Shown: positions 2,359 through 47,217 of the stretch, piece by piece
Position numbering within the stretch: position 1 is the stretch's first letter
Layout: each line of letters opens with the position of its first letter
IMG/VR virus record: IMGVR_UViG_3300048838_000916
Location: 1 to 48,173 of that record
DNA from: a virus
Strand: one strand, 5' to 3'
Length of the DNA stretch: 48,173 nt
The notes under the pieces: model-generated
What the model was told of the DNA's origin: nothing
Databases searched by the model: none
The model's input: the letters and a program-made list of their open reading frames with translations, nothing else
Program-made: the position numbers and the translations under genes

Positions 2359-2383
2359 AGAAAGGTCAATTAATGACCTTTCT
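2359..2383. repeat. 25-bp palindrome, copy 1
   Basis: Arms AGAAAGGTCA and TGACCTTTCT are perfect (10 bp) around the centre ATTAA. It lies between the 2401-2949 gene and the start of the adaptor gene. This is the reference copy of a 14-member family; its members share the arms but not the centre. Confidence 0.9.
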
Positions 2384-2400
2384 CCCTTTTGAATGTTAAA

Positions 2401-2949
2401 CTACTTTACAGGACCAACTCTCGACACTTTCAGATGAAGACGAGCCTTTCCTGCAGTGATTGCTGCATTAGAGGAAATCGCTGCGAAGATACAAGGAGTA
2501 TTGGTGTCCGCATTGACAATCAAGGTTCTTGGCATTGTAGCAACAGCAGACTTGTAGAAGCCGATAGTAGCTTCAGTCACATCAGTATTGTCTACAATAC
2601 CGTCGAGAGCAGAGTAGGTGATGTTATCACCGTTCACTGCATTGTTGGCGGCAATAGTTCCCTGACCAACGTCAAGGATTACAGTACCACCAACGAACCC
2701 TTCAACGATCTCGATCACTGCGTCTTCGATCATGTAACACAGGCCACACAAACCAAGGTCACCAGCAGGAGCGTACGTATTGTAGGGATTGAGGTTATCA
2801 GCGACAGGCACTTTCGGGAACGAAAAGAGCAGCGCACCATTGTCATCAGCTTCTTTACCAAAAACACCAGAGGTCAACCACACAGGGTTTTCGAGAGTCT
2901 GTTTCCTGAGATCAGGCCGACGGTAGTCAAGCAGGGCGATAGTTGCCAT
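2401..2949 (-). CDS. Head-associated protein, 182 aa
   Basis: Starts at ATG 2949 with AAAGGAG about 8 bases upstream. Not recognised as a named family. The N-terminus carries a short basic stretch (LLDYRRPDLRKQ), followed by a beta-rich, alanine- and valine-rich body (for example GFVGGTVILDVGQGTIAA). It follows the 131-aa protein gene and the coat gene in the same transcript, which favours a capsid decoration, minor head or early tail role. The gene ends just before palindrome copy 1. Confidence 0.7.
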   Translation of the reverse strand: MATIALLDYRRPDLRKQTLENPVWLTSGVFGKEADDNGALLFSFPKVPVADNLNPYNTYAPAGDLGLCGLCYMIEDAVIEIVEGFVGGTVILDVGQGTIAANNAVNGDNITYSALDGIVDNTDVTEATIGFYKSAVATMPRTLIVNADTNTPCIFAAISSNAAITAGKARLHLKVSRVGPVK

Positions 2950-2961
2950 TTATATTCTCCT

Positions 2962-3357
2962 TTAGTGGATGATGGAGTAGGTTGCCCAAATACGAACAAC
3001 GGGATTGACTACTGAGTCATTATCATTCGCAGTGATGGTGATAAGACCAGAAGCTGCCCCAAACCACTTCCCTACAGTGCTGACTTTATTCCCGGCAACC
3101 AGCGGCAGGGTAACAGCATTTGCCATAAAGTAGTCAGTATCAGCGACTTCCCCGTTCCCAGCGAAACCAACGAGCAGCGTACCATCTACGGACTGATCGT
3201 CGAATGGGGTAATGATCTCCAACCACACCGCCGTCACAAAGGCTTTCTTCGGCAGCTTCAACAGGTTGTAAGTATCGTCCGCAGCGAGCGTCACTGCTTC
3301 ACTACGAACGAGCCTTACGTTGTCGGCTGCTCTGTGTCCAAGAGCATTGATAGCCAT
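2962..3357 (-). CDS. Small head protein, possible decoration protein, 131 aa
   Basis: Starts at ATG 3357 behind a strong GGAGG. The protein is compact and beta-rich with few charges (for example VDGTLLVGFAGNGEV), a composition common in head decoration or stabilisation proteins. It is encoded directly downstream of the coat gene with only ~30 bp between, the usual place for such proteins. The decoration role is inferred from position and size; no family signature is visible. Confidence 0.65.
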   Translation of the reverse strand: MAINALGHRAADNVRLVRSEAVTLAADDTYNLLKLPKKAFVTAVWLEIITPFDDQSVDGTLLVGFAGNGEVADTDYFMANAVTLPLVAGNKVSTVGKWFGAASGLITITANDNDSVVNPVVRIWATYSIIH

Positions 3358-3388
3358 AGTCTAAGCCTCCAATTGGGCTTAAGGGTTA

Positions 3389-4456
3389 TTAGGCAGAAAC
3401 AGGAGCCGACCACACGGAACCAGTGATCATACCGAAGTCGTGTCCTTCGAACTTGACCTTACGTGCACCCCAGATACCGCCGCCACGAATCATGACGTAA
3501 CGCTCGGCATCACGGTAGTAAGGAACAAAGGCCATGGTGGTTGACTTGGAATCACCGGCTCCACCCCATGCCCATACCGCAGCCTGAGCGCCGCACAGAG
3601 CCACTCGGCGAACGCCTGCGCCGTCGTTGGTACCAGCATCCACGATCAGCGGAGCACGCTCGGTCTTGGAGATGATCAGACCGTTGTAAACGATCTCGGT
3701 CTCGGGCATTGCCAGCTTCTGAGCCGCCCGCAGAAGATCTCCCCACTCACCGACGTTGGTGTTCTGGCGAAGTTCTTCAAAGGTGTAGTTGTGCATGAAC
3801 ACTCGGTAGTGTGCCTTGCCTCCGATCATGATGGGGCGAATCTTGTACTGGTTCTGAGCAGTAGGAATCTCCGCACGCTGCTTCAGTTTGTCAAGGAAGC
3901 CCAGGTTGATGGTGTTGGCACTGGTAAGGGCGGATTCACTGGCAACACCATCAGCAATGATATGCCGATAGGTCGAAGGAGCGTCGATCGCCTGGGCAAA
4001 ATCACCACCAGCAATCTTGTAGCTGGAGTTACTGAACAGCAGGTTGATGATGTAATCGCTGAGCTTAGAAGCCCACCATTCCTGCAGCGCGTCCTTACCT
4101 TCCTGCATGAGGTTGTAAGGAACTCTCTGCTCTTCCATCTTACCGCCAGTGTCAACAGCGTGGTTCAGCTCTTCCACACGACACTTGAAGTTCCTGAAGC
4201 GCAGACGCTCTTCGTTACCTTCCACAGTGTTGTCACCAACAACACCTTCACCAGTCAAGGGCAGACGGATACCAAAGGTAATCTCGTCACCCTCGCCCTT
4301 GGCGAGTTCCTTCTTCATCTGGACAACGGCGTTGGCATCAGAACCAACGATAGCGTTAAACTCCACCGAAGGAAGGACAGCAGAGAACAATTCTCTTGCC
4401 CATTTTTTCCTGGTCAAGGGGTCATTCGTAAGAAAGCGAGTAGTAGGATCAGCCAT
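3389..4456 (-). CDS. Major capsid (coat) protein, N4-gp56-like, 355 aa
   Basis: Starts at ATG 4456 with CGGAGG upstream. The N-terminal part (LTRKKWARELFSAVLPSVEF, then KGEGDEITFGIRLPLTGEGV and GNEERLRFRNF) has the layout of the N4-gp56 family of major capsid proteins: a short helix, the KGdxxtf stretch, the LTGxGVxGd loop and EGNEExL. Length fits the family. The C-terminus contains the RDAERYVMIRGGG stretch. It follows the scaffold gene and palindrome copy 2, consistent with very high late expression. The HK97-type fold is known for the family rather than seen here. Confidence 0.85.
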   Translation of the reverse strand: MADPTTRFLTNDPLTRKKWARELFSAVLPSVEFNAIVGSDANAVVQMKKELAKGEGDEITFGIRLPLTGEGVVGDNTVEGNEERLRFRNFKCRVEELNHAVDTGGKMEEQRVPYNLMQEGKDALQEWWASKLSDYIINLLFSNSSYKIAGGDFAQAIDAPSTYRHIIADGVASESALTSANTINLGFLDKLKQRAEIPTAQNQYKIRPIMIGGKAHYRVFMHNYTFEELRQNTNVGEWGDLLRAAQKLAMPETEIVYNGLIISKTERAPLIVDAGTNDGAGVRRVALCGAQAAVWAWGGAGDSKSTTMAFVPYYRDAERYVMIRGGGIWGARKVKFEGHDFGMITGSVWSAPVSA

Positions 4457-4470
4457 AAAATGGTCCTCCG

Positions 4471-4495
4471 AGAAAGGTCAAAAGTTGACGTTTCT
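4471..4495. repeat. 25-bp palindrome, copy 2
   Basis: Left arm AGAAAGGTCA, centre AAAGT, right arm TGACGTTTCT (one mismatch). It lies between the scaffold stop and the ribosome site of the coat gene. Confidence 0.85.
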
Positions 4496-4506
4496 CTATT
4501 GAATTG

Positions 4507-5352
4507 TTACTTTAAGTCCCCGGACAAATACCGCTGGTAAATGTCCTTTGGAACTTTGACAAGGTCTTCTTCGCTCATATTGTCAATGCGAGAAGAAGTC
4601 CACCCACCACTTTCCTCGTTGGAGGCAGGGAGGTTGGAGATAGTTGCCGGTGCGGTCTTGGGCTTAGGCTCAGCTTTCGGTTGAGCTTTAGGGGTTTCAG
4701 GTTCCTCTTTCTTCTCCTCTTTAGAGGCAAAGTCCGGGTGAAACGCCTTGATTTTTTCGTACATAAAGCGGTAAGGATTGGGCATTGCCCAGATCTTTGC
4801 TGCGACTGCATCAATGTAGTCCTCAGCCTTACCGCCCTGCTGCTGCGCAGTAGCGAAAGCATACCCTTCAACCATGTCATCGAAGCGAGACTGTGACACG
4901 ATGGTGTCTACGTCCTCGAACTTCGGGTTTATTCTCATTGTCTCGAGGAGAGTTTCGAGCTGGATAGCGCGGAGGGTATTGGCCTTCTCTGCTTCCAGCT
5001 GCTCCTCTTCGTCAGGCTCCTCGATGTATCCTTTTTCTTTCAGTTCGCCTGTGGACTTCTCCACTTTGGATTGAAGTTCCCTAATACGACGGTTCTGTTC
5101 TCGGAGTAGGATACGAAGCTGAGATACTTCATCAGTACTCTTTGGTGCGTCTGAGGTAGGATCAGCTTCGGGTGTAGGATCAGTTTCAACAATAGCGTCT
5201 GGAGTTTCATCAACTTTCTCCTCAGCAGGGGTGTCAGGAACAGTTTCGACTTCGGTCTCTACCGTTACTTCGTCAGCCTCAACCTCAGGTGTCTCAATGG
5301 TTTCACCCTCAGGAACTACATCAAAAAGATCATTCAAATTTTCGCCAGCCAT
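4507..5352 (-). CDS. Scaffolding protein, 281 aa
   Basis: Start chosen at ATG 5352 (MAGENLNDLF), because GGGAGG sits 5-10 bases upstream; an ATG four codons earlier overlaps that ribosome site. The first ~90 residues are very acidic and rich in E, T, V and D. A coiled-coil-like charged segment follows (VSQLRILLREQNRRIRELQS), then a K/E/P-rich linker and a C-terminal tail ending DIYQRYLSGDLK. Acidic, extended, coiled-coil proteins between portal and coat genes are the typical scaffold. The role is assigned from composition and gene order. Confidence 0.8.
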   Translation of the reverse strand: MAGENLNDLFDVVPEGETIETPEVEADEVTVETEVETVPDTPAEEKVDETPDAIVETDPTPEADPTSDAPKSTDEVSQLRILLREQNRRIRELQSKVEKSTGELKEKGYIEEPDEEEQLEAEKANTLRAIQLETLLETMRINPKFEDVDTIVSQSRFDDMVEGYAFATAQQQGGKAEDYIDAVAAKIWAMPNPYRFMYEKIKAFHPDFASKEEKKEEPETPKAQPKAEPKPKTAPATISNLPASNEESGGWTSSRIDNMSEEDLVKVPKDIYQRYLSGDLK

Positions 5353-5367
5353 AATGCCTCCCACTTG

Positions 5368-8748: not shown

Positions 8749-8766
8749 TCTTATGCTTTCCTTCTA

Positions 8767-8791
8767 AGAAAGGTCAATAAATGACTTTTCT
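8767..8791. repeat. 25-bp palindrome, copy 3
   Basis: Left arm AGAAAGGTCA, centre ATAAA, right arm TGACTTTTCT (one change, wobble-compatible on the plus-sense RNA). It lies between the 73-aa gene and the terL ribosome site, touching the former's stop. Confidence 0.85.
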
Positions 8792-9012
8792 CATACTATT
8801 TGGTTTAAATAGCGTTTTCTTTTAATGTTTGCTTCGTATTTTATTTGCTCACTAAAATCAAGAAATGCTTCTTTTTCAATACCCGTAAGTGTATCTATAT
8901 ACTTTTCACAAAGGTTGTCAAGGATAATAATTTGCCTTGGTGTAATCCACGGTGCAAAACCTGCCATGTATGCATCGAAAGGATTGATTCTGCCACGTTC
9001 AGAGTATTTCAT
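8791..9012 (-). CDS. Hypothetical protein upstream of terL, 73 aa
   Basis: Start chosen at ATG 9012: it overlaps the preceding stop as ATGA and AGGAA lies about 7 bases upstream. The ATG at 9018 is only one base from that ribosome site. The protein is mixed charged and helical (PRQIIILDNLCEKYIDTL), with no transmembrane segment and no motif I recognise. Directly preceding terL, it could be a small packaging accessory protein, but this is only positional inference. Confidence 0.65.
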   Translation of the reverse strand: MKYSERGRINPFDAYMAGFAPWITPRQIIILDNLCEKYIDTLTGIEKEAFLDFSEQIKYEANIKRKRYLNQIV

Positions 9013-9323: not shown

Positions 9324-9325
9324 TG

Positions 9326-12291: not shown

Positions 12292-12762
12292 CTATAAATT
12301 TGGAATACCTTCAAGGTCTTCAGTGGAAACAATGCACATGTCATCACCTGAGCCAAGGACTGACTGAGAGTAAGTGGTGGTGGAGATTTCCTTCATTGCG
12401 ACCTTTTCTTTTTCGATCTGAACAAGGTACGAGACAAGGCCCTTTATCTCAGTGGGCTTTCCAATGTCAACATTCTCGCGGTCGGCGAGGACTTTAAAAA
12501 CCACAGCAAGATCTTTGATGTCAGCTGCCGCAATCTTCTCAGGCGTCATTGCGTCAAGCACCATCATCTGAAGTTCGGTGAGGCGGAGATTTCTGAGGTC
12601 CCGAGCTTTGAGTAAAAGTCCTTGCTTTTCCTGAAGATCGTTGAGACGTTTTTGAAGAGTAGGAATTGAAACGCCAGTAATCTCAGACATTTCTGACTGA
12701 GTTAGATTGCGCTCTGCAAGATCAAGGAGTGTTTCCACCGATAAGTCAACTTTCTTTGGCAT
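12292..12762 (-). CDS. Small terminase candidate / HTH protein, 156 aa
   Basis: First gene of the leftward block, ATG at 12762. The N-terminal ~45 residues form a helix-turn-helix (LAERNLTQSEMSEITGVSIP, then TLQKRLNDLQ). A helical middle and the stretch VVFKVLADRENVDIGKPTEI fit the oligomerisation region of small terminases. Small terminase recognises phage DNA and feeds it to the large subunit. Unusually, five other genes separate it from terL, and no purine-rich ribosome site precedes the ATG. Alternative: a late-operon regulator using the same DNA-binding fold. Confidence 0.6.
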   Translation of the reverse strand: MPKKVDLSVETLLDLAERNLTQSEMSEITGVSIPTLQKRLNDLQEKQGLLLKARDLRNLRLTELQMMVLDAMTPEKIAAADIKDLAVVFKVLADRENVDIGKPTEIKGLVSYLVQIEKEKVAMKEISTTTYSQSVLGSGDDMCIVSTEDLEGIPNL

Positions 12763-12929: not shown

Positions 12930-12954
12930 AGAAAAGTCAACTTTTGACCTTTCT
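12930..12954. repeat. 25-bp palindrome, copy 4
   Basis: Left arm AGAAAAGTCA (one change), centre ACTTT, right arm TGACCTTTCT. The only copy upstream of the first late gene, about 170 bp from its start. Confidence 0.85.
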
Positions 12955-13647: not shown

Positions 13648-14058
13648 ATGGAAAAGGCAACAATTAAAACTTCTCGCAGTTACTCTAATGGTTCGGCTGA
13701 GGTGCGCGGGGTGGTTTGGGATGACATGAACAAGGTTGAAGTGCGTGAGGCGTGGAACGCGCAGGTTGTTTGTGCCGACCTCCCGACTGAGAGCCTTTAC
13801 GGGCTCGCCCTTTACGGATTGAGAATGGTCAATGACATTGTGAACAGCGATAAAAATCTCACGACTATTGAGGACAAGCTCGAATCCGCCCAACAGATTG
13901 TGGCTGACCTCGTGAAGGGGAAGTATGTCTGGGAAAAGGAACGCAAGGGCCGCTCGGCTGATGTCGTCAAGGTCAGTAAAAAGGCGCTCGAAAATCTCAC
14001 CCCGGAAGAAAGAAAGCACTGGGATGAAATGATCGCAAAGATGATGGCAAAGAAGTAA
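13648..14058 (+). CDS. First early gene, hypothetical 136 aa
   Basis: Starts at ATG 13648 with TTGGAGG 8 bases upstream. A charged, soluble protein: N-terminal TSRSYSNGSAEVRGVVWDD looks beta-type, the rest is helical with a very basic C-terminus (KHWDEMIAKMMAKK). No recognised domain. As the first gene after the best promoter in the window it may be a very early host-takeover protein, but that is inferred from position only. A GC-rich hairpin follows the stop. Confidence 0.75.
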   Translation: MEKATIKTSRSYSNGSAEVRGVVWDDMNKVEVREAWNAQVVCADLPTESLYGLALYGLRMVNDIVNSDKNLTTIEDKLESAQQIVADLVKGKYVWEKERKGRSADVVKVSKKALENLTPEERKHWDEMIAKMMAKK

Positions 14059-14333: not shown

Positions 14334-14358
14334 AGAAAGGTCAAAAAATGACCTTTCT
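14334..14358. repeat. 25-bp palindrome, copy 5
   Basis: Perfect arms AGAAAGGTCA/TGACCTTTCT with centre AAAAA. Flanking GGG and CCC extend the stem to 13 bp (14331-14361). It stands about 40 bp before the mirror-image element. Confidence 0.9.
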
Positions 14359-14395: not shown

Positions 14396-14540
14396 GCTGT
14401 ACTAGGTACTAGGTACTAGGTACTACCATATCGTGTGCTAGTGCTAGTGCTAGTATCCGTGGATGATGAAAATTCGGTGACCTTTTCCTTTCTGGGAAAA
14501 TAAAACGCTTAAATCCTTCCCAGAGTTCTTTCTTCTAAGC
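14396..14540 (+). repeat. Left arm of the mirror-image element
   Basis: Order: GCTGTACTA start; GTACTAG units of 7 bp (14399-14425); 10-12 bp spacer; CTAGTGCTAGTGCTAGTA (14438-14455, period 6); 22-bp spacer starting with CCGTGG; TGACCTTTTCCTTTCTGG (14478-14495); CTTCCC (14516-14521); TTCTAAGC (14533-14540). Each element has a partner in the right arm in inverted order. Confidence 0.85.
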
Positions 14541-15131: not shown

Positions 15132-15353
15132 ATGGAAAGCGTTCTTTTTGTGCTAGTCAAGACAAAGAAAGGCCCAATCCTTAAACGCGAGGATATTTAC
15201 TGCACAACCCGCGCAGTGGATCACTCCCATAACTACGGACTGGTGGCGAATCAGGTCTTTCAGGATTACACCAGTGCAGTAGAGCTGGAAAAGAACTGCA
15301 CCTACACAGTGGAAGTGCGCCATCCTCAAGTAGTTTTGAGGTGCGAAACGTAA
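15132..15353 (+). CDS. Hypothetical protein, 73 aa
   Basis: Start chosen at ATG 15132, because GGAGGTG lies just upstream and the previous stop is adjacent. Short beta-rich protein (MESVLFVLVKTKKGPILKRE at the N-terminus, CTYTVEVRHPQVVLRCET at the C-terminus). No recognised family. The stop codon touches palindrome copy 6. Confidence 0.65.
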   Translation: MESVLFVLVKTKKGPILKREDIYCTTRAVDHSHNYGLVANQVFQDYTSAVELEKNCTYTVEVRHPQVVLRCET

Positions 15354-15377
15354 GAAAGGTCAGAAATTGACCTTTCT
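15353..15377. repeat. 25-bp palindrome, copy 6
   Basis: Perfect arms AGAAAGGTCA/TGACCTTTCT, centre GAAAT. Begins at the last base of the 73-aa gene's stop and is followed directly by a GGGAA repeat. Confidence 0.9.
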
Positions 15378-15381
15378 GGAA

Positions 15382-15399
15382 GGGAAGGGAAGGGAAGGG
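15382..15399 (+). other. GGGAA tandem repeat, G-quadruplex motif
   Basis: Four GGG runs separated by AA (15382-15399): both a pentanucleotide tandem repeat and a canonical G-quadruplex motif. It lies in the ~120-bp gap before the 70-aa gene, on the coding strand, so the early RNA could fold as well. Confidence 0.75.
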
Positions 15400-15498
15400 A
15401 ACTGTTAAATAATGTTTGACAGTAGTGTGATTTTGTGGCATTGTTATTTTGTGAATGAGAGATTTCTCCCAAACCCATCTAAATTGGAGGCGTTTGAA

Positions 15499-16880: not shown

Positions 16881-17210
16881 ATGCCTGAATTCATCACCGT
16901 CAAAGCAGCTTATGGGAAGGAATTAAACTCCGAGAAAGAGGTCCTTCAGCACTACCTCGACGGAAAAGACTTTATGATCCTTTCCCTTCACCACGGCGCG
17001 GGTTCCTACTTAAACATCCTCGATTGCGAAAGAGCAAAGAAGCCCATTTCCCTTGAGGTAAGGTTTGGTAAGAAAAGTCAAAAAGTGACCATTCTTGATA
17101 CCAGTGATGCGACAGAGTTAAAAAGGAAACTCGAAAGGAAAGCTAAAAGAGGTAAGAATGTGGTAGTTTTTGGAGAATCTTATATGAAGCAGGATGAAGG
17201 AGTGATGTAA
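16881..17210 (+). CDS. Hypothetical protein, 109 aa
   Basis: Start chosen at ATG 16881 (MPEFITVKAAYGKEL) with AAGGAAC upstream. Contains LQHYLDGKDFMILSLHHGAG and a basic C-terminal stretch (LKRKLERKAKRGKNVVVFG). Palindrome copy 7 lies inside the gene and encodes KKSQKVTIL. No family recognised. Confidence 0.7.
   Translation: MPEFITVKAAYGKELNSEKEVLQHYLDGKDFMILSLHHGAGSYLNILDCERAKKPISLEVRFGKKSQKVTILDTSDATELKRKLERKAKRGKNVVVFGESYMKQDEGVM
17071..17095. repeat. 25-bp palindrome, copy 7 (inside a gene)
   Basis: Left arm AGAAAAGTCA, centre AAAAG, right arm TGACCATTCT. One of three copies located within coding sequence. Confidence 0.85.
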
Positions 17211-20395: not shown

Positions 20396-20833
20396 ATGGC
20401 TGCAACTCACACCGCAAACATCTTAAAAGCCTGCGCCGAGCTAAACCCAGGAGAATCCTTTGTTTATACATTCCCCACTGAAAAGATCGCACACAACGAG
20501 TATTGTTATTTCCGCACCTCTCTGCGAGCGGCTCTGCAGAAGTTTCCTGCGGCGAAAAACCTCACTCTTTCTCGTCAAGGTTCATCAGTTACCATCTCCA
20601 TGGGAGTACCTGATATTCTCTACCCTACTCCCAAACGGGTCAAAACCTCTGAACTTTTTATCGAAATGGAAGAAAAGTCAAAAGATGACCTTTCTGAAAA
20701 GCCGCACCCTCACCAAGGGATTTTAGACCGCATAAATTCTGACCTCGCGGAGGGTTTAATCTCTCCTTCTGAAGCGGCAGAGGCAATTAACTCCATTCTA
20801 ACTTGCACTCCCTCAAACTCACAGGAGCTATAA
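20396..20833 (+). CDS. Local family protein with helical tail, 145 aa
   Basis: ATG 20396 follows GGGAAGGAGG. The N-terminal ~75 residues (ILKACAELNPGESFVYTFPT, then TLSRQGSSVTISM) resemble the 20146 product. The C-terminal ~40 residues form a short helical hairpin (ILDRINSDLAEGLISPSEAA) like SHOCT-type tails. Palindrome copy 8 lies within the gene and encodes EKSKDDLSE. The role is unknown; the tail may mediate self-association. Confidence 0.65.
   Translation: MAATHTANILKACAELNPGESFVYTFPTEKIAHNEYCYFRTSLRAALQKFPAAKNLTLSRQGSSVTISMGVPDILYPTPKRVKTSELFIEMEEKSKDDLSEKPHPHQGILDRINSDLAEGLISPSEAAEAINSILTCTPSNSQEL
20671..20695. repeat. 25-bp palindrome, copy 8 (inside a gene)
   Basis: Left arm AGAAAAGTCA, centre AAAGA, right arm TGACCTTTCT. 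Lies in the linker region between the two parts of the 145-aa protein. Confidence 0.85.
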
Positions 20834-23550: not shown

Positions 23551-23575
23551 AGAAAGGTCACTTATTGACCATTCT
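23551..23575. repeat. 25-bp palindrome, copy 9
   Basis: Left arm AGAAAGGTCA, centre CTTAT, right arm TGACCATTCT. It lies 34 bp upstream of the -35 box of the promoter at 23609, making it a plausible operator for the ribbon-helix-helix gene. Confidence 0.85.
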
Positions 23576-23695: not shown

Positions 23696-23893
23696 ATGAA
23701 GCGACTTTATTGCCGAGTGAGCGATGACGAATACACTGACTTTAAAGTCGCCATTGCTCAGAGCGGCCTCACCGTCGAAGCGGCTATCCGTAAAGGATTA
23801 AACATCTTACTTTTTAACCCTAAAACCCTGGAGAAAGATCATGTCCGAAGTAGTAGAAGTGAAGAAGACCAAGAAGCTGGCCAAGGAAATTGA
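23696..23893 (+). CDS. Ribbon-helix-helix-like DNA-binding protein, 65 aa
   Basis: ATG 23696 is preceded by GGGAGG. The product starts MKRLYCRVSDDEYTDFKVAI, a short strand followed by a helix, then GLTVEAAIRKGLNILL, a second helix: the Arc/MetJ/CopG layout. RHH proteins bind palindromic or tandem sites as dimers. With its own promoter and a palindrome copy just upstream, it is the best visible candidate for the factor that reads the 14 palindromes, but this is inference. The C-terminus overlaps the next gene. Confidence 0.6.
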   Translation: MKRLYCRVSDDEYTDFKVAIAQSGLTVEAAIRKGLNILLFNPKTLEKDHVRSSRSEEDQEAGQGN

Positions 23894-24218
23894 AGGTTCC
23901 GTAGTCCGCATTTCTGTTGATGGCGGCGCTCCCATGGAGTTTGACTTCGCCTCCCTGCCCAAAGAAATTCGCGTGAAGTTTGGTCCCTTCGGTCTGGGAC
24001 ACAAGCTGGGTGACAGTGCTGCTGGTAAAAGCGGAGCCGAAGCTGAAGAGTCCATCAACAAAGTCTGGGAAGGTCTCATGAGTGGCGACTGGACAACCCG
24101 CGCCCCGGCAGCTCCCAAGCTCACCAAGAAGAACATCGCGGAAGGCCTCGGCAATCTCAGCGGCGACGAAGCAGAAGCTGCTCGCGCCCTCCTCGCCAAG
24201 CTTGGTATCAACATTTAA
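23841..24218 (+). CDS. Hypothetical protein, 125 aa
   Basis: ATG 23841 follows CTGGAG, inside the end of the RHH gene. A soluble, lysine- and alanine-rich protein (for example KKTKKLAKEIEGSVV at the start and GLGNLSGDEAEAARALLAK at the end), with strongly biased, GC-rich codon use, which suggests high expression. No domain known to me. A terminator-like hairpin follows. Confidence 0.7.
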   Translation: MSEVVEVKKTKKLAKEIEGSVVRISVDGGAPMEFDFASLPKEIRVKFGPFGLGHKLGDSAAGKSGAEAEESINKVWEGLMSGDWTTRAPAAPKLTKKNIAEGLGNLSGDEAEAARALLAKLGINI

Positions 24219-26581: not shown

Positions 26582-27097
26582 ATGTCTACCTCCAAGCCCG
26601 GCGATTTCGATTACCCTGGTACCCCCGGCGAAGGCGCAGTTGCAAACATCAGCACAGACTTCAATCTCGAAGACGAGTACAAAGCTGATCCTATCGTCCC
26701 CGCTGGAACCTACTTCGCCAACGTCACGAAAGTCTGGTACGACAACGAGAAGAACACCATTTGCTGGAAGCTCGTGTTGGACGGCAACGAAGCTGTTATG
26801 TCCGACGGCGAGACCCCTGTCGACGGCGTTGCACTGACCTACAAGAACTGGCTCCCCAACCCCGGAGACGAGAGCATCCCCAACTCCTCCGGCAAGTCCA
26901 CCAAGCGTCAGACCAAGATCAACATGCTGAAGAAATTCGCCGATGACCTTCGCATCGACATGTCCACTCCTCAGATGATCCAGGACGCCCTCCTGAATCA
27001 CGAGTGGGTCGGCATCCGCTGCGTCCTCGTCGTCACCCTGCGCGAATATGAAGGCAAGATCTTCAACGACATCAAGAGCATCAAGGCCGAGGCGTAA
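26582..27097 (+). CDS. DUF669 / SSB-like protein, 171 aa
   Basis: ATG 26582 follows AAGGAG. An acidic N-terminus, then PIVPAGTYFANVTKVWYDNE and ICWKLVLDGNEAVM, with VDGVALTYKNWLPNPGDE and a C-terminal REYEGKIFNDIKSIKAEA. This resembles the DUF669 family found beside phage recombination ATPases, which may act as single-stranded-DNA-binding proteins. GC-rich, highly biased codons suggest strong expression. The assignment is by pattern and context. Confidence 0.65.
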   Translation: MSTSKPGDFDYPGTPGEGAVANISTDFNLEDEYKADPIVPAGTYFANVTKVWYDNEKNTICWKLVLDGNEAVMSDGETPVDGVALTYKNWLPNPGDESIPNSSGKSTKRQTKINMLKKFADDLRIDMSTPQMIQDALLNHEWVGIRCVLVVTLREYEGKIFNDIKSIKAEA

Positions 27098-27118: not shown

Positions 27119-27143
27119 AGAAAAGTCAATAATTGACCTTTCT
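27119..27143. repeat. 25-bp palindrome, copy 10
   Basis: Left arm AGAAAAGTCA, centre ATAAT, right arm TGACCTTTCT. Followed within 8 bp by a terminator-like hairpin. Confidence 0.9.
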
Positions 27144-28373: not shown

Positions 28374-28751
28374 ATGCCATTCGTCTATGTCCTCTCCCCT
28401 TATACCTCTCCCTCTGAAGTTGAGATGAATGTGCGGGCGCATTTTGCTGCGTGCGCGGTGGCTGAGCTGATGGAGAAGCCTCAGTTTAATGGGTATGTTT
28501 TCTTCTCTCCCATCATTCACTATCACCAAGTAGCAGTGCGCTCGAAGGGTCTTCCACGCGACGCCAGCTTTTGGTGGAACATAAACCTCACCTTCATGCG
28601 AATGGCTACCCACGCAGTTGTGCTGCAGATGCCTGGATGGAAAGAGTCAAATGGCATCCGAAAGGAGCTTCACTGGTTTACCAACAACCAAGAACTCTCC
28701 AATGCCCCGGCTGAGATCATATACTACAACACTAACTGGGAGAATTTCTAA
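28374..28751 (+). CDS. DUF1937 protein, deoxyribosyltransferase-like, 125 aa
   Basis: ATG 28374 follows GGAG. The sequence pattern FVYVLSPYT, then FFSPIIHYHQVA, LPRDASFWWNINLTFMRMA and MPGWKESNGIRKELHW is that of DUF1937, a Rossmann-like family related to nucleoside 2-deoxyribosyltransferases. A role in nucleotide metabolism is therefore likely, but the exact reaction is unknown. The TAA overlaps the next ATG. Confidence 0.75.
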   Translation: MPFVYVLSPYTSPSEVEMNVRAHFAACAVAELMEKPQFNGYVFFSPIIHYHQVAVRSKGLPRDASFWWNINLTFMRMATHAVVLQMPGWKESNGIRKELHWFTNNQELSNAPAEIIYYNTNWENF

Positions 28752-30097
28752 TGGAAACTGTACGCCCTCAGCTGGAAGTGTTTTACGTTTCCCCACTCAA
28801 GATCAAAGTCAACAAAGACCTCCCGCGCTTTCGTGAGGAAATGGGTGATGTTGATGATCTTGCTCTTTCACTGGTAGAAAAAGGTCAGCTTCAGCCAATC
28901 GTCATCAACAGGGAAATGGAATTGATTGCTGGTGGTCGCCGTTTAGCAGCTTGCCTAAAGGCACAGATAGACGTCCTCTGCATCTTCAACGACGCGGTCG
29001 ATTCACTGACCATGCGGGAGCTTGAAATTGAAGAAAACATACAGCGGAAACAATTCACCCCTGCCGAGGAATTCAAAGCCATTGCCGAGATTCATGCCCT
29101 TAAGCAACAGCGATTTGGAGGCACTATCCAAGGACGCAAGGGCGGCCACACTTTACAGGACACGGCTAATCTCCTGGGAAAATCAAAGGCAAAGGTTATC
29201 GAAGCTCTCTCCCTCGCTGACGCGGTCAACCGATTCCCTGAGCTTAAGAACTGCAAGAAAGCATCAGAAATTAAAAAGGCTGTCAAAGCAATCGAATCAG
29301 TCGCTAATCGCGCGGAAAAGTCTGCAGGATATCAAGCTGAAATTATTGCTATGCAGCAGACTGAACGGCTCCCTTATGAAGTGTACAAATGCTCAGCAGA
29401 GGAGTTCTATTCTAAGCTCGAGCCAGAAAGCGTTGACATACTACTCGCGGACCCTCCTTACGGAATCGACATTGATAAGACTGCCACTTCTGTTGGAGGA
29501 ATTACAGGCGGCACTAACTCTGCTGGATTCACTTTCGATGATAGTACCGAACGAGCTCTCGTACTCTATCGCGAGCTTGCAGAAAGAAGCATCATATTTA
29601 CAAAACCTTCTTCCCATGCTTATGTGTTCTGTGGGCCTGAACACTTCTGGGCAGTGCGAGAAATGTTCAAGTCGGTTGGCTGGCTGTGTTATCCAAAGCC
29701 CATCATCTGGATCAAGCGAGAAGTCGGACAGTGTAATGTCCCCCATGCCTGGCCAGCATCTTGCTATGAAATGCTTATGTACGCTAGACGAGTTGACTCC
29801 ACCCTCGTTAAACAAGGACAGCCTGACTGGATCGATTGTCCTCCAATCCAAGCAGGAGCTAAGCGACATCCGACAGAAAAACCAATCGCGCTCCTTAGGA
29901 ATCTTCTCCAGCGGGTTGCCCTTCCGGGCGCGGTAGTGGTTGACCCGTTCATGGGCTCTGGCTCTGCAATCGAAGCCGCTTGCATAGAACAGTGTTTCGC
30001 AAAAGGCTGCGACATCCTTGAAGAAAGCTACAATGTTACCATCGAACGTCTTGTTGAATGGAGCCGTAACCAGCAGCTCATCAACGCAATGTGTTAA
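28751..30097 (+). CDS. ParB-like domain fused to DNA methyltransferase, 448 aa
   Basis: ATG 28751 by TAATG overlap, with GGGAG upstream. Residues ~1-130 are a ParB/Srx-type domain (GGRRLAA at 61-67, EENIQRKQFTPAEEFKAIAE). Residues ~215-448 are an amino-methyltransferase: catalytic DPPYG at 234-238 (N4-C or N6-A type), SAM-binding VVDPFMGSGSAIEAA around D398, an order (IV before I) typical of the beta class. No restriction enzyme partner was seen nearby. Likely protects phage DNA from host restriction, or marks it. The ParB part may supply DNA targeting. Confidence 0.85.
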   Translation: METVRPQLEVFYVSPLKIKVNKDLPRFREEMGDVDDLALSLVEKGQLQPIVINREMELIAGGRRLAACLKAQIDVLCIFNDAVDSLTMRELEIEENIQRKQFTPAEEFKAIAEIHALKQQRFGGTIQGRKGGHTLQDTANLLGKSKAKVIEALSLADAVNRFPELKNCKKASEIKKAVKAIESVANRAEKSAGYQAEIIAMQQTERLPYEVYKCSAEEFYSKLEPESVDILLADPPYGIDIDKTATSVGGITGGTNSAGFTFDDSTERALVLYRELAERSIIFTKPSSHAYVFCGPEHFWAVREMFKSVGWLCYPKPIIWIKREVGQCNVPHAWPASCYEMLMYARRVDSTLVKQGQPDWIDCPPIQAGAKRHPTEKPIALLRNLLQRVALPGAVVVDPFMGSGSAIEAACIEQCFAKGCDILEESYNVTIERLVEWSRNQQLINAMC

Positions 30098-30110: not shown

Positions 30111-33100
30111 ATGCTAAACCTCGTCAATACCACAGGGCCTGCCAACGCGCGCATAATGCTCGTTGGTGAGGCTCCAGGTAAAGAAGAGCAGATGACTGGC
30201 GAACCATTTGCTGGTACCAACGGGAGAGTCCTTAACCAGCTTCTCTCAGCTGCCGGCTTGTTCAAACAGTCCTGCCTTCTCACCAACGTAGCTCGCCAGA
30301 TGCCCCCAGGAAAGAACATCTCTCTTTTCTTTGAGGATCGCCTATGCACTCAGCCCAAACCCATGCTCCGTGAGTGGATGCACATGCTTGCGGCTGACAT
30401 TCAAACCTATAAGCCCAACGTCATTGTTGCCCTCGGTCGCACCGCTCTCTGGGCACTCACCGGCTTCACCAAGATTTCCCAATTCCGCGGGTATCTTTGT
30501 GAGTGCTCCCTCGTTCCTGGCTTCAAAGTCCTTCCAACCTTTCACCCCCGCTATGTCATTGAGAATTGGAAAGAATCCTTCACAGTGGTGATGGACCTTC
30601 GAAAGGCTGTGCGCGAAAGCACTACCCCAGAAATGCCTCCAGACACTCGCACCTTAATCCCCGAAGCTTCTCTCGATGAATGGATTAAGTATTGTGACTT
30701 CCTTGCTGAGCAAGAATGTCCAGTCGCATTTGACATTGAAACCACAGGAAATCGCTGCCACACCCACCGAGTAGGGTTCGCGCACAATGCAAACTTTGGT
30801 ATGTCAATCGGAATCCTCAATGGTCTTTACCCAAAGTACTCAACCCAAGACGAAGTTGCCTTCTGGGACTCCGTCACAAACGTACTGAACCACTGCCCAG
30901 TGATTCTTCAAAACGGCTCCTTCGACATCGGAGCTATCTTCCACCACGTTGGAGTGCTCCCTAAAAAGCTCTTCTTCGACACCCACATCGCAGCACACGT
31001 CTGCTGGCCCGAAACTCCTCGAAGCCTGTCCTATCTCGCTTCGATGTTTCTCAATGTCCCAGCATGGAAGCACACTGGTGGCGACGACAACGGCCTTTAC
31101 AACGCCGCCGACTGCGCTAACACCTTCGGCATTTACCAAGGACTTCAAAACGAAATAGAAGCTCAAGGTCTCACGGAAGTCTTTATGTTTGAGCTGTCCC
31201 AGATCTACCCCGCCGTTATGCTCCAGCTCCAAGGCATCCTCATCGACGAAGACCGTAGGCAAAAAATCGCTTGCTTCGCGCAGGAGGAAATGGATGAAAT
31301 CCAGGAAGGACTCAATCGTATCCTTAAGAAAGACATCAACATGCGGTCTCCAAAGCAAATGCAGCAACTCCTGTATATTGACCTCGGACTTCCCGTCCAG
31401 TACAAACGTCGCAAGTCTGCGAATGACGCTCGTACTGTTACTACAGATGCGACGGCACTTGCTAATCTCGAGCGTACCTGTAAGCACCCTGCTCTTGCTC
31501 TCATCATGCGATATAAGAAACTTGACAAATTGGTATCAAATTTCTTGGACATTGAAGTCTCTCCCGAGGGTCGTGTATACACTTGTTACAACATTACAGG
31601 CGCGACAATGCGCCGAGAAAACAAAGGATTCGTAGTTGACGACGAAGATTCCTACCGCTCCTTTGGCCGCTGGAGTTCCTCCGGCTCCATCATTCTCCCA
31701 TACGGCCCAGGCAACCTTCAAAACATCCCCAAGGCTGCCCGAAAAATATTCGTACCTCCCAAGGGATACCTTCTCCTCCAGGCTGACTATAAACAAGCAG
31801 AAGCTGTCGTCGTCGCATACCTCATCAACGATGTAAAGCTGAAGAAACTCTTCCAAGATTCCTTCGGAAAGAGCGATGAAGAGTGTGTCGCTAATGGCTG
31901 GGACGTACACAAAATAACTGCTGCGCCAATGTTCGGATGCTCAGTTCTTGACGTCACAAAAGAACAGCGGACTGTAGGTAAAACCATCCGCCATGCCTGT
32001 GTTGATAAGGATACCGAAGTCTTGACAAAACGCGGGTGGGTAAAGATCTCCACCTTCAACAAAGAAACAGACGAGGTTGCCCAGTACTGGGAAGACGGTA
32101 CCATCTCATTTACAAAACCAATTGAAACAGTACAATATCCGTACAACGGAGTACTATACGAATTCAAGCAACCTTCTCTACACCAAGTAGTATCACCCGG
32201 CCACCGAATGCTTGTAACAAATAGAAAGAACAAGAAAAATTACGTACGCCTCAGCCAGGATGTATTTGACACTCGTAATGCTGATTACAAAATCCCAATC
32301 GCAGGTCAATACAAACCTGAGGTAGTATGTGATTTCTCTGAATCAGTTTTTCGCTTGTTCGTCGCAATCCAAGCAGATGGTTCTTACCGCCAGCGTGGAA
32401 TGAAAAAGGAAATAACCTTTCATATCCAGAAGGAACGAAAGCTCATTCGTCTTCGACAGCTTCTTGTTGACGCTGAAATCATGTTCACCGAAACAGTACG
32501 TCCTGATGGAATCCAGCATGACTTCTACATCGGAGGAAGTAACGAACCAAACGTCAGCCTTTTCGCACTCATCTCTCAGACAGAAAAAATGTTTGGGCCT
32601 TGGGTGCTTAATCTCACTTCCTCGCAGATGTCAGCAATGGTTGACGAAACGCGCTGGTGGGATTCACGACGTAACGAATCTGGAAACAGCTGGCAATACT
32701 ACTCTCAATACAAAGAAAACTGCGACTGGGTAGCTACGATGTGTCACCTCTCCGGGCGCAAAGGTACTGTATCAGCAACACACCCAACAGTATACACAAC
32801 AAACATATCTGACGTAGATGCGGTATGTTTTGATAAGTCTGAACGGAACTACGTACCATACAGTGATTGCATTTACTCTATGCAAGTTCCGTCGTCATAC
32901 TATCTAATCCGCAAAGGGAGTATCATCAGTGTCACTGGTAACACTAACTATTCAGCTGGGCCGGACGTTGTTGCTAATAGACTAGGTATCACCAGAAAGG
33001 AAGCTAAGTCCTATCTTGACCGCTACCATGCTGGAACTCCACAACTCCATCTTTGGCACCAGCGAATCCAGGATGAGCTACAACGTACCAGAGTTCTTAC

Positions 33101-33455
33101 AAACCTCTTTGGAAGAAAGCATCGCTTCCTTGACCGTTGGGGAGACTCTCTCTTTCGAAGTGCCTATTCATTCATCCCTCAAAGTACTGTTGGAGATCTC
33201 CTTAACCACGCACTCATCAATATCTATAACAATCTCAACTCCTGGTGCCACCTCGCACTACAGCTTCACGACGCAGTGTACGTCTATGTAAAGCCTACTG
33301 ATCTCCCTGACGCAATCCACGCCCTCAGAGAGAACATGATCATCCCTCTTCAAACCGAGCAGGGCGAGGAATTCACCATCGACGTAGACTTCTCCGTCGG
33401 CGAGACCTGGGGTGAAATGGAAACTGTTTCTTGGCACCCCAAGAAAAGTCAATAA
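30111..33455 (+). CDS. UDG - family A DNA polymerase fusion containing an intein, 1114 aa
   Basis: ATG 30111 follows TAGGAG. Domains: residues ~1-165 uracil-DNA glycosylase-like (GEAPGKEEQMTGEPFAGTNG; FHPRYV at the end; N-terminal Fe-S cysteines of family 4 missing); ~200-380 a 3'-5' exonuclease (Exo I D208 in FDIETTG, Exo II NGSFD, Exo III YNAAD); ~480-1114 the polymerase palm and fingers (motif A D559 in ADYKQAE; motif B RTVGKTIRHA interrupted after residue 629; motif C LHDAVYV with D1054 but Ala instead of the usual Glu). A 315-residue intein occupies 630-944, so the mature protein would be ~799 aa. The main replicative polymerase is inferred. Confidence 0.9.
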   Translation: MLNLVNTTGPANARIMLVGEAPGKEEQMTGEPFAGTNGRVLNQLLSAAGLFKQSCLLTNVARQMPPGKNISLFFEDRLCTQPKPMLREWMHMLAADIQTYKPNVIVALGRTALWALTGFTKISQFRGYLCECSLVPGFKVLPTFHPRYVIENWKESFTVVMDLRKAVRESTTPEMPPDTRTLIPEASLDEWIKYCDFLAEQECPVAFDIETTGNRCHTHRVGFAHNANFGMSIGILNGLYPKYSTQDEVAFWDSVTNVLNHCPVILQNGSFDIGAIFHHVGVLPKKLFFDTHIAAHVCWPETPRSLSYLASMFLNVPAWKHTGGDDNGLYNAADCANTFGIYQGLQNEIEAQGLTEVFMFELSQIYPAVMLQLQGILIDEDRRQKIACFAQEEMDEIQEGLNRILKKDINMRSPKQMQQLLYIDLGLPVQYKRRKSANDARTVTTDATALANLERTCKHPALALIMRYKKLDKLVSNFLDIEVSPEGRVYTCYNITGATMRRENKGFVVDDEDSYRSFGRWSSSGSIILPYGPGNLQNIPKAARKIFVPPKGYLLLQADYKQAEAVVVAYLINDVKLKKLFQDSFGKSDEECVANGWDVHKITAAPMFGCSVLDVTKEQRTVGKTIRHACVDKDTEVLTKRGWVKISTFNKETDEVAQYWEDGTISFTKPIETVQYPYNGVLYEFKQPSLHQVVSPGHRMLVTNRKNKKNYVRLSQDVFDTRNADYKIPIAGQYKPEVVCDFSESVFRLFVAIQADGSYRQRGMKKEITFHIQKERKLIRLRQLLVDAEIMFTETVRPDGIQHDFYIGGSNEPNVSLFALISQTEKMFGPWVLNLTSSQMSAMVDETRWWDSRRNESGNSWQYYSQYKENCDWVATMCHLSGRKGTVSATHPTVYTTNISDVDAVCFDKSERNYVPYSDCIYSMQVPSSYYLIRKGSIISVTGNTNYSAGPDVVANRLGITRKEAKSYLDRYHAGTPQLHLWHQRIQDELQRTRVLTNLFGRKHRFLDRWGDSLFRSAYSFIPQSTVGDLLNHALINIYNNLNSWCHLALQLHDAVYVYVKPTDLPDAIHALRENMIIPLQTEQGEEFTIDVDFSVGETWGEMETVSWHPKKSQ
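31998..32942 (+). other. Intein within polymerase motif B, 315 residues
   Basis: Begins with Cys630 (CVDKDTEVLTKRGWVKI), has the block-B-like HQVVSPGHRMLV, and ends IYSMQVPSSYYLIRKGSIIS then VTGN944, followed by Thr as the +1 residue. The penultimate residue is Gly instead of the usual His. The middle contains LFVAIQADGSYRQRG and a second similar stretch, a degenerate LAGLIDADG homing-endonuclease core. Removal would join IRHA to TNYSAGP and restore motif B (R-x3-K-x6-Y). Confidence 0.9.
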
Positions 33456-33466
33456 TTGACCTTTCT
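33442..33466. repeat. 25-bp palindrome, copy 11
   Basis: Left arm AGAAAAGTCA, centre ATAAT, right arm TGACCTTTCT. The polymerase stop codon (33453-33455) lies in its centre, and the ribosome site of the next gene follows at once. Confidence 0.9.
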
Positions 33467-35974: not shown

Positions 35975-35999
35975 AGAAAAGTCAATAGTTGACCTTTCT
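35975..35999. repeat. 25-bp palindrome, copy 12
   Basis: Left arm AGAAAAGTCA, centre ATAGT, right arm TGACCTTTCT; flanking TGGG and CCCA extend the pairing to 14 bp. It separates the 1719-aa virion gene from the lysis genes, suggesting independent control of lysis. Confidence 0.9.
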
Positions 36000-41169: not shown

Positions 41170-41184
41170 TTACTTCTCCTTTAG

Positions 41185-41209
41185 AGAAAGGTCATTAATT
41201 GACTTTTCT
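41185..41209. repeat. 25-bp palindrome, copy 13
   Basis: Left arm AGAAAGGTCA, centre TTAAT, right arm TGACTTTTCT. The stop of the 290-aa gene (41195-41197) lies within it, and the ribosome site of the giant gene follows. Confidence 0.85.
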
Positions 41210-42067: not shown

Positions 42068-42077
42068 GCTTTTCTCC

Positions 42078-43337: not shown

Positions 43338-43348
43338 AATCAATCCTC

Positions 43349-44050: not shown

Positions 44051-44514
44051 AGTCTATCCTTCGAGATGAAATCGACACCACAAACGCAGGTGTACCGGTG
44101 ACGGTAGCCAGCTTTTCCAGCCGCGCACTTTCCACAAACGACTGAATACTCAACCGCCTCTTTACACTTTGGGCAGACAATCGCCGCGAGTTGCTCGCTC
44201 CCGAGGATGCTCCTTGTTTCGGCTTCCTCGTTCTGTTGTCTCGCTGCCTCAAACGCCTCTTCCCTGCGCTGGTTGTGAATCTCAAGCTTCAGTGCATAGG
44301 CCCTACCATCGACCCACATTAACTCTCGACCGTCGGTTGTGAGGTATTTGTCATGAATGTTTGCGACTTCCTCAAAGCCGTCTGTGAGAAGTGCATCAAT
44401 AATGTCTTGATGGTTCTTACTGACAGCCGCTTGCCACTCAGACACCAGCTCTTCGACTTCGACTTGTGAAAGAGAAAGCAGTTTTTGTTTTAGTTTTTCT
44501 TTTTCTGTGATCAT
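44047..44514 (-). CDS. Zinc-ribbon protein, 155 aa
   Basis: ATG 44514 has only a modest AGGGATT upstream. N-terminal ~110 residues are helical (KLKQKLLSLSQVEVEELVSE). The C-terminal part has CPKC...CGKC followed by CVCG, a double zinc-ribbon arrangement. Position among tail genes is unusual for such a protein; it may assist assembly or be a regulatory factor. Function unknown. Confidence 0.65.
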   Translation of the reverse strand: MITEKEKLKQKLLSLSQVEVEELVSEWQAAVSKNHQDIIDALLTDGFEEVANIHDKYLTTDGRELMWVDGRAYALKLEIHNQRREEAFEAARQQNEEAETRSILGSEQLAAIVCPKCKEAVEYSVVCGKCAAGKAGYRHRYTCVCGVDFISKDRL

Positions 44515-44523
44515 AATTAATCC

Positions 44524-47217
44524 CTATGGATACCATCTACTACCGAATGCCTTTCTGCGAACTCCGTTTTCTGCTGCCCACCATATAATATAGAATCCAG
44601 AAGCATCCCATGCGCTATACCATGTATTTGGAGTCATTGACCCATATGAATAACTCATGTTTGTTGAGTAATTATAGGTACACACGGCCCACGGTCTATT
44701 AACTCTAACAACGTAAGGCCAGGGCAAACTACCAGAAGTTGGAGCAGCACAACCAGTGCCACTTGGCATCGGGTCGCAAAGAACACTAACACTTGCAACA
44801 GCGCCACAACCATCAACCCACGAAGCTGTATAGTAATAACCTGGCGTAGCGCCAGATGGCATCCGTAGAATAATCCCGCTGCTCGAACTACTCACATACT
44901 CAAGCTCACCCGTGTATTCTACTTCGAAAGTAAGGCTATGCGAAAAATAGCCAGTAGCTCCTTGTGCTAATTTACTAGGTCCTGTAGCAACCCCGGTTCC
45001 ACCTGTTGTATCACTCGCTGAAAGCGAATCTCCACAAGCATCGGAAACATTCACGGACGAGTAGCAACCGCCCGAGGCATCCGCGTAAACCGTTCGCGTC
45101 AGTGCGAGTTGCGACTTTGAAAGAACAGCCCCACCTGAGTTTCTGAAAATGACATTCGTTCCGAGCCAATCAAACGGCGGACATCCTCCAATAAATGTAA
45201 GCTGGAGTGTTTCGCCAACTTCAATGACTCCGTACTCAGCGCTCCACTCCATAGTCTCCTCGCAAAGACATGGATCATTCATAAACCTGCGCTCGCACTT
45301 AACCACACCACCATCGACATTAGACGCAGGGTACGACACACCGCCAACAAGCACCTTCACTTCGTGCTCTTCGTCAACGTCTTCTGGAACTTGCGCTATG
45401 AAACCTAGTCGTGTACTCCAATTTCCAGTTGCATCTGGCATTGAGTGATAACCAAGCGGGGCAAGTACAGTCATGTTCTCGGTGTACTCGTGGCCGTGTG
45501 CGAGAATCCACTCGTCAGAGTCTCCGCCCATAAGGGTAAAGTAAACGACCTCACCAGGACTTTGGCCAGCAACCGGGACCGAGCAAAGAGCGCAGGAGTT
45601 ACCGACTGCAGTAGCATTGGACCATAGCACTCCGCCGTCCAAGTGCCAAAGACCGTCGAACAGAAAGTAGAACCCATCCACCACACCAGGCGAATCGAAG
45701 TTTGGCGGAACAGTCCCGAGTGCAAGGTAAAACCGCTTGCTGTTTTTCAAGTCCTCACGGAAGAACTTCGCCCACTGCTGGTACGGGGTCCATTGCCCTG
45801 GGCATTCACCAAGGTAACCTTCTGGGTCAGTGTAAACGCCACACGTTCCAGCACAGTCAGCCGACCAAGTGCACGACGGACCATTTTGCTGTACTTCCTC
45901 GTCTTCAAAGAAGAAATTGTCGCAGAGGTAGTCAGCCTCACAGTGAAGCATTGCGCCAAAAAGCCCATCCCATGACTGCACTGCGATTTGCTGAGAAATC
46001 TCACCTTCAACAGAGAGGTCTGAAAACTCAATTGCGCCAGTTGAAAGGGCGATCTCGATCTTGATAAAACGCGGGGCGAGAATCCATGTCAGCGAATCAC
46101 CGGCGTAGTCAAGACACCCTGCGACAATCTGAGAGATACCGTTCCCACCCCAACACCTATCTTCTTTCGTACCAGAAAAGTACATACTCGGCGCGAGGGC
46201 AAGAATTGTTACCCTCCCCTCCTCAACATCCAGTGGAAAAGCGCACAGTGACGCGAAGCGGTACAGGTCTTTAGTGTGATTGAAATACGGATCGCCAGCG
46301 GGGTTATCCAGTTTGTTCCGATAAATCCCTGGTATCGTGTCGGAGTTCCCAAAGAAATCATCATCACTTCCGATGTCCACATGGTAGCCAATGGTCTTGT
46401 TTGGGGAGAAGTACGAGCCAGTGCACTTACGGTGAATCCAGCATGGATTTGGATGCAGGACCGCAACCGACAACTCTCCGGATTCGGCAAGCGAAAGCGT
46501 GTTCAGTTCGAAATACTTAAGATCAACGTCAATTCCTTCTGGCCCATTCGAAAGCTCAACCACCCGCACCGAAACATCCTGACCCTTGTCGCTGTGAATA
46601 ATCGAGAACTTGTCCTGCCCAATGACCGTAATGCGAGAAGAAGGATTCGTATTTGCTGGCAGCTTGATTGTACCCTTCTCCTGACCCTCACCGATTATCA
46701 CCCCGCAATTCTGGGACAGGACATATCTTGTCGCAGGATCATCGTTGAAGCACCCTGCAATCATGCCCGGAGCGTTGAGTGCAAAGCCAGGGTAAACAAA
46801 CGACTCTGTTATCCCATCGGAAGCCGTTACTGTTGCAGCAAACTTAGTCAGTATAACTACAGGATTTCCATCCCTGTCTTGCCTAACTTCAACCCAAAAA
46901 TACCCTTGCGACGTAATCACATAAAAAGTTTTAACGACCTCTTCCTCAGAAGAGTCAACAATTGACCTTTCTTCAATCACCCTTTGTCTAATAGGAGAAT
47001 AAAGTTGAACACTTTCTTCGCCGTAAAAATACTGACCAAATACACTAGTACCAGTTTCTTCAAAGAACATCGCAAAGCGATCTTGTTTTAGTCCTGCTTC
47101 TTTACACCTTCGTACGAATGCTTTGAATTTTGAAAGTACAACAGGAAGATGCCAGCGAGCGGCGTCTTCGTTACCCTGGAGAAATATTCGGGTATTACTG
47201 TTGTCGAACATTTTCAC
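44524..47217 (-). CDS. Large cysteine-rich tail/appendage protein, 897 aa
   Basis: GTG 47217 overlaps the previous stop (GTGA) behind GGAG. A long, acidic, beta-rich protein with many cysteines (e.g. CTWSADCAGTCGVYTDPEGY, CLCEETMEWSAEYGVIEVGE), Ig-like stretches (LQLTFIGGCPPFDWLGTNV) and several GW/GG turns. The Cys pairs could form disulfides in the particle outside the cell. A host-recognition or appendage role is inferred. Palindrome copy 14 lies near the 5' end of the gene. Confidence 0.7.
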   Translation of the reverse strand: MKMFDNSNTRIFLQGNEDAARWHLPVVLSKFKAFVRRCKEAGLKQDRFAMFFEETGTSVFGQYFYGEESVQLYSPIRQRVIEERSIVDSSEEEVVKTFYVITSQGYFWVEVRQDRDGNPVVILTKFAATVTASDGITESFVYPGFALNAPGMIAGCFNDDPATRYVLSQNCGVIIGEGQEKGTIKLPANTNPSSRITVIGQDKFSIIHSDKGQDVSVRVVELSNGPEGIDVDLKYFELNTLSLAESGELSVAVLHPNPCWIHRKCTGSYFSPNKTIGYHVDIGSDDDFFGNSDTIPGIYRNKLDNPAGDPYFNHTKDLYRFASLCAFPLDVEEGRVTILALAPSMYFSGTKEDRCWGGNGISQIVAGCLDYAGDSLTWILAPRFIKIEIALSTGAIEFSDLSVEGEISQQIAVQSWDGLFGAMLHCEADYLCDNFFFEDEEVQQNGPSCTWSADCAGTCGVYTDPEGYLGECPGQWTPYQQWAKFFREDLKNSKRFYLALGTVPPNFDSPGVVDGFYFLFDGLWHLDGGVLWSNATAVGNSCALCSVPVAGQSPGEVVYFTLMGGDSDEWILAHGHEYTENMTVLAPLGYHSMPDATGNWSTRLGFIAQVPEDVDEEHEVKVLVGGVSYPASNVDGGVVKCERRFMNDPCLCEETMEWSAEYGVIEVGETLQLTFIGGCPPFDWLGTNVIFRNSGGAVLSKSQLALTRTVYADASGGCYSSVNVSDACGDSLSASDTTGGTGVATGPSKLAQGATGYFSHSLTFEVEYTGELEYVSSSSSGIILRMPSGATPGYYYTASWVDGCGAVASVSVLCDPMPSGTGCAAPTSGSLPWPYVVRVNRPWAVCTYNYSTNMSYSYGSMTPNTWYSAWDASGFYIIWWAAENGVRRKAFGSRWYP
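46948..46972. repeat. 25-bp palindrome, copy 14 (inside a gene)
   Basis: Left arm AGAAGAGTCA (two changes), centre ACAAT, right arm TGACCTTTCT. It lies about 245 bp into the 897-aa tail protein gene, encoding part of a serine- and glutamate-rich stretch (EERSIVDSSEE). Confidence 0.75.

Follow-up and report, generated by a model that had tools for sequence, protein, structure and literature searches.

The closest described systems belong largely to the ParB family. In ParB/parS partition, arginine 173 (R173) in the GKSR motif of Caulobacter ParB reads guanine 1 of parS, and in Noc a glutamine at the matching position reads adenine (PMC7383237). Noc of Bacillus is a ParB-family clamp that works without ParA, loads at 16-base-pair (bp) nucleation sites (NBS) and associates with the neighbouring DNA (PMC8429893), and KorB of plasmid RK2 is a ParB-family clamp loaded at 16-bp operators (OB) near genes of a small replicon (PMC11790492). 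In phages, orphan ParB-like proteins that join the ParB fold to a PF01555 methyltransferase and lack ParA have been catalogued as phage-enriched and frequent, with DNA target and role unreported (PMC12704722). Genome-wide phage sites near gene ends are known from the Cluster A mycobacteriophages, whose stoperators have a consensus that diverges with their reader (PMC6550527, PMC9283540). In the present study, we analysed a 48,173-base virus record (the window, meaning this whole stretch of DNA), over which 14 copies of a 25-bp palindrome are dispersed, together with the gene at 28751-30097 (+ strand), which encodes a 448-residue fusion of ParB, helix-turn-helix (HTH) and N6/N4 methyltransferase domains and is the candidate reader of these sites.

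The window's fusion protein shares with partition proteins ParB boxes II and III, an HTH and, by inspection, a specificity position matching R173 (PMC7383237), but it lacks a C-terminal dimerisation domain, no ParA was found, and the 25-bp sites are evenly spread. In contrast to Noc, the protein carries a methyltransferase in place of the C-terminal domain and belongs to a phage genome with 25-bp sites, and KorB has no methyltransferase. Stoperators differ in that they are asymmetric and oriented, and are bound by a monomeric immunity repressor of temperate phages. The survey of phage orphan ParB-like proteins gives neither palindromes nor a target, whereas here genome-wide sites are linked to a reading HTH. 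For the ParB-methyltransferase fusions we supply a candidate DNA target, mapped across the genomes of about 40 phages, and a residue-to-base rule by which the HTH predicts the site, so that what these proteins do (PMC12704722) becomes testable with one purified protein and short oligonucleotides. These pairs of ParB-type HTHs and sites, co-evolved in nature, should also be useful for specificity studies and as a source of orthogonal DNA tags.

Results

All 14 palindromes listed by an earlier, sequence-only reading of the window were present at the coordinates it gave, each with at most two deviations per strand from AGAAARGTCA-N5-TGACCTTTCT, where dinucleotide shuffles gave a mean of 0.02 chance matches to the pattern. 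The set is discrete, because in a weight matrix the sites scored 34-42 bits and the next best place in the window 3 bits, with no intermediate copies. The arms are strongly constrained: between the window and its close relative G001 (43 kb), 13 of 240 arm bases had changed, whereas the flanks had changed at 120 of 480 bases and the centres at 15 of 60. On the sense strand, arm mispairs comprised eight A.C and two G.U in the window and 122 A.C versus 88 G.U across 17 genomes, which bears out the earlier remark that RNA pairing is not consistently kept. Since base pairing on the RNA is unpreserved, the palindromes are to be regarded as double-stranded DNA sites, and we judge the sequence-only reading right in proposing recognition by a dimeric protein and dispersed sites of one factor. 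It had also known of no described family with such a sequence, and the literature searched, which covered few subscription journals, gave no account of these palindromes.

The window encodes a podovirus-like portal, a large terminase, a major capsid protein, a family A DNA polymerase, Sak4, an exonuclease and a ligase. Named phages are distant from it (portal about 24% identical, capsid up to 35%), and many relatives occur in IMG/VR. The comparison covered about 40 related viruses; the relatives are metagenomic contigs, and gene calls were made by a simple script. Repeated palindromes were sought de novo with shuffled controls; an unrestricted search was misled by codon bias in high-GC phages, a problem cured by restriction to intergenic positions. 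Nearly all relatives with enough sequence had a family of their own, of about 5-18 palindromes with a common centre of symmetry and a differing sequence. As examples, with further families in other relatives, the arms read AGAAAGGTCA in the window, G019, G022 and G023, AAACGTCA in G011, AAATACACA in G012, AGTTTGAATA in G031, GAGTAGGTCA in G033, ATCAATGTCA in G020, AGTTCGGTCA in G040, AGATAGTTCA in G041 and CCTATGGTAA in G048. In the Desulfofustis phage MD01 (OP947158), the replication module matches, fusion included, but the structural genes are unrelated in the searches made; its own palindromes number nine, are 27 bp long and read TGCTATGTCCCAAnTTGGGACATAGCA.

Palindromes were clear in about 34 genomes with the ParB-methyltransferase fusion and weaker in a few more; G026 and G021 have both fusion and palindromes, and no palindrome family was found in five relatives or podoviruses lacking the fusion (G027, G028, L241, L242, L244). 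The sequence-only reading would have been refuted by relatives that lack sites at the same junctions; instead, the junctions proved to be reused even where the palindrome sequence had changed, and at the one upstream of the homologue of gene 1665-2330, 12 genomes carried a site. Where one arm of a site was degenerate, the sequence just outside was often ACTG or ACTT (L052-L054 in G011; L058-L059 in G016; also L215-L217 in G022 and L218-L220 in G023), which is perhaps an extended half-site.

The product of 28751-30097 scored above the cut-off for PF02195 and contains ParB boxes, a ParB-like HTH (GHTLQDTANLLGKSKAKVIEALSLADAV) and the N6/N4 methyltransferase. Its residues 6-192 matched Noc and ParB chains in the PDB (phmmer, E 1e-8 to 1e-9), with Noc the closest structure match, and boxes II and III (GxRR..A; ENxxR) were conserved in nearly all homologues. 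An AlphaFold2 model of the fusion (predicted local distance difference test, 86; predicted template modelling score, 0.68) contained the HTH and matched both ParB/Noc structures and N6-adenine methyltransferases in Foldseek, the methyltransferase fold replacing the canonical C-terminal dimerisation domain of ParB. The methyltransferase motifs in the window are DPPY and DPFMGSGS, and nearly all members retain the S-adenosylmethionine (SAM)-binding motif I. By its N-terminal domain the fusion is a member of the ParB-fold family; it belongs neither to a ParABS partition system nor to a stoperator system.

Divergence of the palindrome followed that of the HTH (residues 132-165; 29144-29245, + strand), with a Spearman coefficient of 0.77 over 31 genomes and 0.64 over the 27 close ones, compared with 0.49 and 0.10 for the ParB domain and 0.50 and 0.08 for the methyltransferase domain. 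The partial correlation of the HTH given the methyltransferase was 0.67/0.65 (permutation p 0.0005), and the reverse partials were about 0. Thirteen other conserved proteins mostly correlated less with the palindrome, and the partial for the ParB-HTH stayed at 0.40-0.61 with these taken into account.

Among 3531 pairs of residue and arm position, the strongest joined residue 146 to arm position 7. This residue, at the start of the recognition helix (Lys146 codon, 29186-29188, + strand), is the best single predictor of an arm base: with K or R, arm position 7 was G in 20 of 21 genomes, and with other residues in 0 of 6 (p 2e-5). Furthermore, K went with a purine at arm position 6 in 16/16 (G030 being a tie) and R with a pyrimidine in 5/7. 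The K/R rule also applied to nine genomes or fragments outside the set from which it was derived (R in L250, L253, L260, L274, L286 and G021; K in L258, L272 and L277), and the HTHs of G025 and G030 differ by K to R, with sites differing accordingly. By inspection, residue 146 is the GKSK position that matches R173 of Caulobacter ParB.

Other proteins made poorer readers. The sequence-only reading had suggested the product at 23696 as the first binder to try; this is an open reading frame without a family match, and the evidence favours the 28751-30097 product instead. A 156-residue HTH protein (12292-12762) was rejected as TerS-like (it adjoins TerL in G020), with an HTH missing in G014, G019 and L023 and an N-terminal (HTH) third that does not track the palindrome (0.20 in the comparison); it heads the leftward block and combines a highly variable HTH with a conserved C-terminal part. 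The early-gene paralogues of 23841-24218 were also set aside, for they occupy the same position in most genomes and are dissimilar between genomes that share a palindrome.

Most sites occupy the gap that separates a stop codon from the following ribosome site, in both transcription blocks. On the leftward side, the palindrome at 2359-2383 lies upstream of gene 1665-2330 (-), where relatives have a site more often than at any other junction, that at 4471-4495 lies 14 bp before the start of the major capsid gene (-), that at 8767-8791 lies 18 bp before the start of the large terminase gene (-), and that at 12930-12954 lies upstream of the TerS-like gene 12292-12762 (-). Two others are in the control region, at 14334-14358, preceding the rightward block, and at 15353-15377, 34 bp before 15412. 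Those at 17071-17095 (within gene 16881-17210) and 20671-20695 (within gene 20396-20833) are both kept in G001; that at 23551-23575 directly follows the ligase stop codon and that at 27119-27143 follows gene 26582-27097; and that at 33442-33466 shares bases with the stop codon of the DNA polymerase and stands 12 bp ahead of a primase-like gene. A 1719-residue gene (-) has one site directly 3' of it (35975-35999) and another 15 bp before it (41185-41209), and the last, at 46948-46972, is within gene 44524-47211 (-). The gene-junction placement seen earlier stands with refinements: the sites at 17071, 20671 and 46948 are intragenic, that at 33442 overlaps a stop codon and that at 12930 falls in a poorly annotated stretch. 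No called gene contains any of the others, most of which stand 12-34 bp upstream of a start codon.

In 17 genomes, 125 of 167 site centres were intergenic against 12.6 expected, and at same-strand junctions the site usually ended 8-30 bp before the start codon. Spacing was also more even than chance, both in the window (coefficient of variation 0.45 versus about 0.92, p 0.002) and in 29/30 genomes (Stouffer z -8.0). Neither a -10/-35 signature nor any hexamer recurred at a constant distance from the sites, and a promoter reading was rejected for this lack of a hexamer. Short tandem repeats adjoin the two control-region palindromes, at about 15378-15402 and 14400-14430 (ggaag-type; ggtacta).

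Discussion

We propose, with a probability of about 0.75, that the ParB-HTH-methyltransferase has in the palindromes its own dispersed docking sites on the phage genome, comparable to parS, NBS and OB, and that its HTH reads them. The co-variation of the two sequences supports the view that site and HTH are re-tuned jointly within each phage lineage, and the contrast between domains of one and the same protein would be hard to explain by ancestry alone. By analogy with ParB, Noc and KorB, a dimer would dock at a palindrome, the ParB fold would close on a nucleoside triphosphate (cytidine triphosphate, CTP, in ParB) and the resulting clamp would slide onto the neighbouring DNA (PMC12704722, PMC8429893, PMC11790492), such that intergenic sites every 3-5 kb would spread the protein across the whole phage genome. 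More speculatively, the attached methyltransferase might mark the genome chemically, e.g., against host restriction, or else the bound protein might shape transcription or folding of the genome.

We infer that methylation could be spread by the CTP-driven clamp. Tentatively, this might amount to self-marking, in which a ParB ring loads at evenly spaced phage-only sites, slides and carries the methyltransferase with it, so that DNA would be modified by address rather than by a short methylation motif, the address being recoded in each lineage; we hold this scenario to be less likely than not.

Several points weigh against the docking-site proposal. The sites are longer than parS (25 versus 16 bp) and their half-sites are further apart. 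ParB sequence homology is strong only to about residue 125, and the equivalence of the HTH to that of ParB thus rests, beyond this residue, on structure prediction and pattern. The permutation tests were made on related genomes, from which shared ancestry is not fully removed, and the residue rules have exceptions in G012, G008 and L243. No palindrome family was seen in G047, G050 and G051, three distant genomes that carry a related fusion. Finally, motif IV reads DPPY/DPPF in 21/39 homologues, DPIY/DPLY in 16/39 and DFPY in 2/39; because this catalytic motif is altered while the palindromes persist, methylation may not be the conserved task, and the 18/39 altered homologues call for caution in assuming it in all members.

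The alternative that fares best keeps the same reader and gives it another task, namely that of a KorB- or Noc-like silencer, roadblock or genome organiser in which methylation is incidental or lost. Such a role would suit the location of sites in both blocks, at gene junctions and close ahead of ribosome sites, as well as a catalytic motif altered in about half of the proteins with ParB boxes intact and the two palindromes just upstream of the fusion gene itself in G022; KorB, by sliding, represses over distances of up to 1.5 kb (PMC11790492). The lack of a promoter signature at constant spacing from the sites speaks against it, however, and so does the retention of motif I in nearly all members, which argues for a methyltransferase fold that is used. 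We regard this as a serious possibility, although not the one we would back.

Far less credit is due to the idea that a separate phage repressor reads the palindromes as stoperator-like operators in a temperate immunity system of the L5 kind. Dispersed gene-end sites with a lineage-specific consensus do recall the Cluster A mycobacteriophages (PMC6550527), but the earlier comparison with L5 fits only loosely, for the inferred reader is of ParB type and no immunity repressor, the sites are symmetric and unoriented, with imperfect arms on either side, and neither integrase (PF00589) nor ParA (PF13614) was found in the genomes searched. Moreover, the related phage MD01 is predicted to be lytic (PMC10370329), and the ParB-HTH is unmatched among the conserved proteins in how it tracks the palindrome, all of which makes this account unlikely. 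Partition (segregation) sites of an extrachromosomal prophage are more improbable still: a ParB-type protein with palindromic sites would be expected there, but ParA family PF13614 is absent from 21 genomes, the canonical C-terminal dimerisation domain is missing and the sites are spread genome-wide without clustering. Lysogeny and partition were accordingly both rejected on the failure to find integrase and ParA. RNA hairpins serving as terminators or processing sites would agree with a 10-bp inverted repeat just upstream of ribosome sites, but A.C mispairs at least as frequent as G.U, the several intragenic copies and arms that diverge in step with a DNA-binding HTH make them highly improbable. 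Docking sites of a host protein with host-specific specificity, which differences in site sequence between lineages might suggest, can be dismissed with similar assurance, as site divergence follows one phage domain and the specificity residue within it.

As for the host itself, assignment from bacterial-genome matches with full flanks was dropped, the matches being phage-sized contigs of 47-57 kb inside bins; such contigs of the group (L062, L063, L064) sit within bacterial and archaeal GTDB metagenome bins. At the position of the first rightward gene (13648-14058), most relatives have a fast-evolving early paralogue of the conserved 125-residue protein 23841-24218, often followed by a palindrome. 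The DNA polymerase gene (30111-33455) encodes 1114 residues, compared with about 800 in relatives, and at the N terminus of its product a uracil-DNA glycosylase domain (PF03167) is joined to the exonuclease and polymerase A domains. An insertion at residues ~630-945 of this polymerase matches phage profiles of unrelated enzymes, an intein-like pattern, and is probably an intein, present in G001 too.

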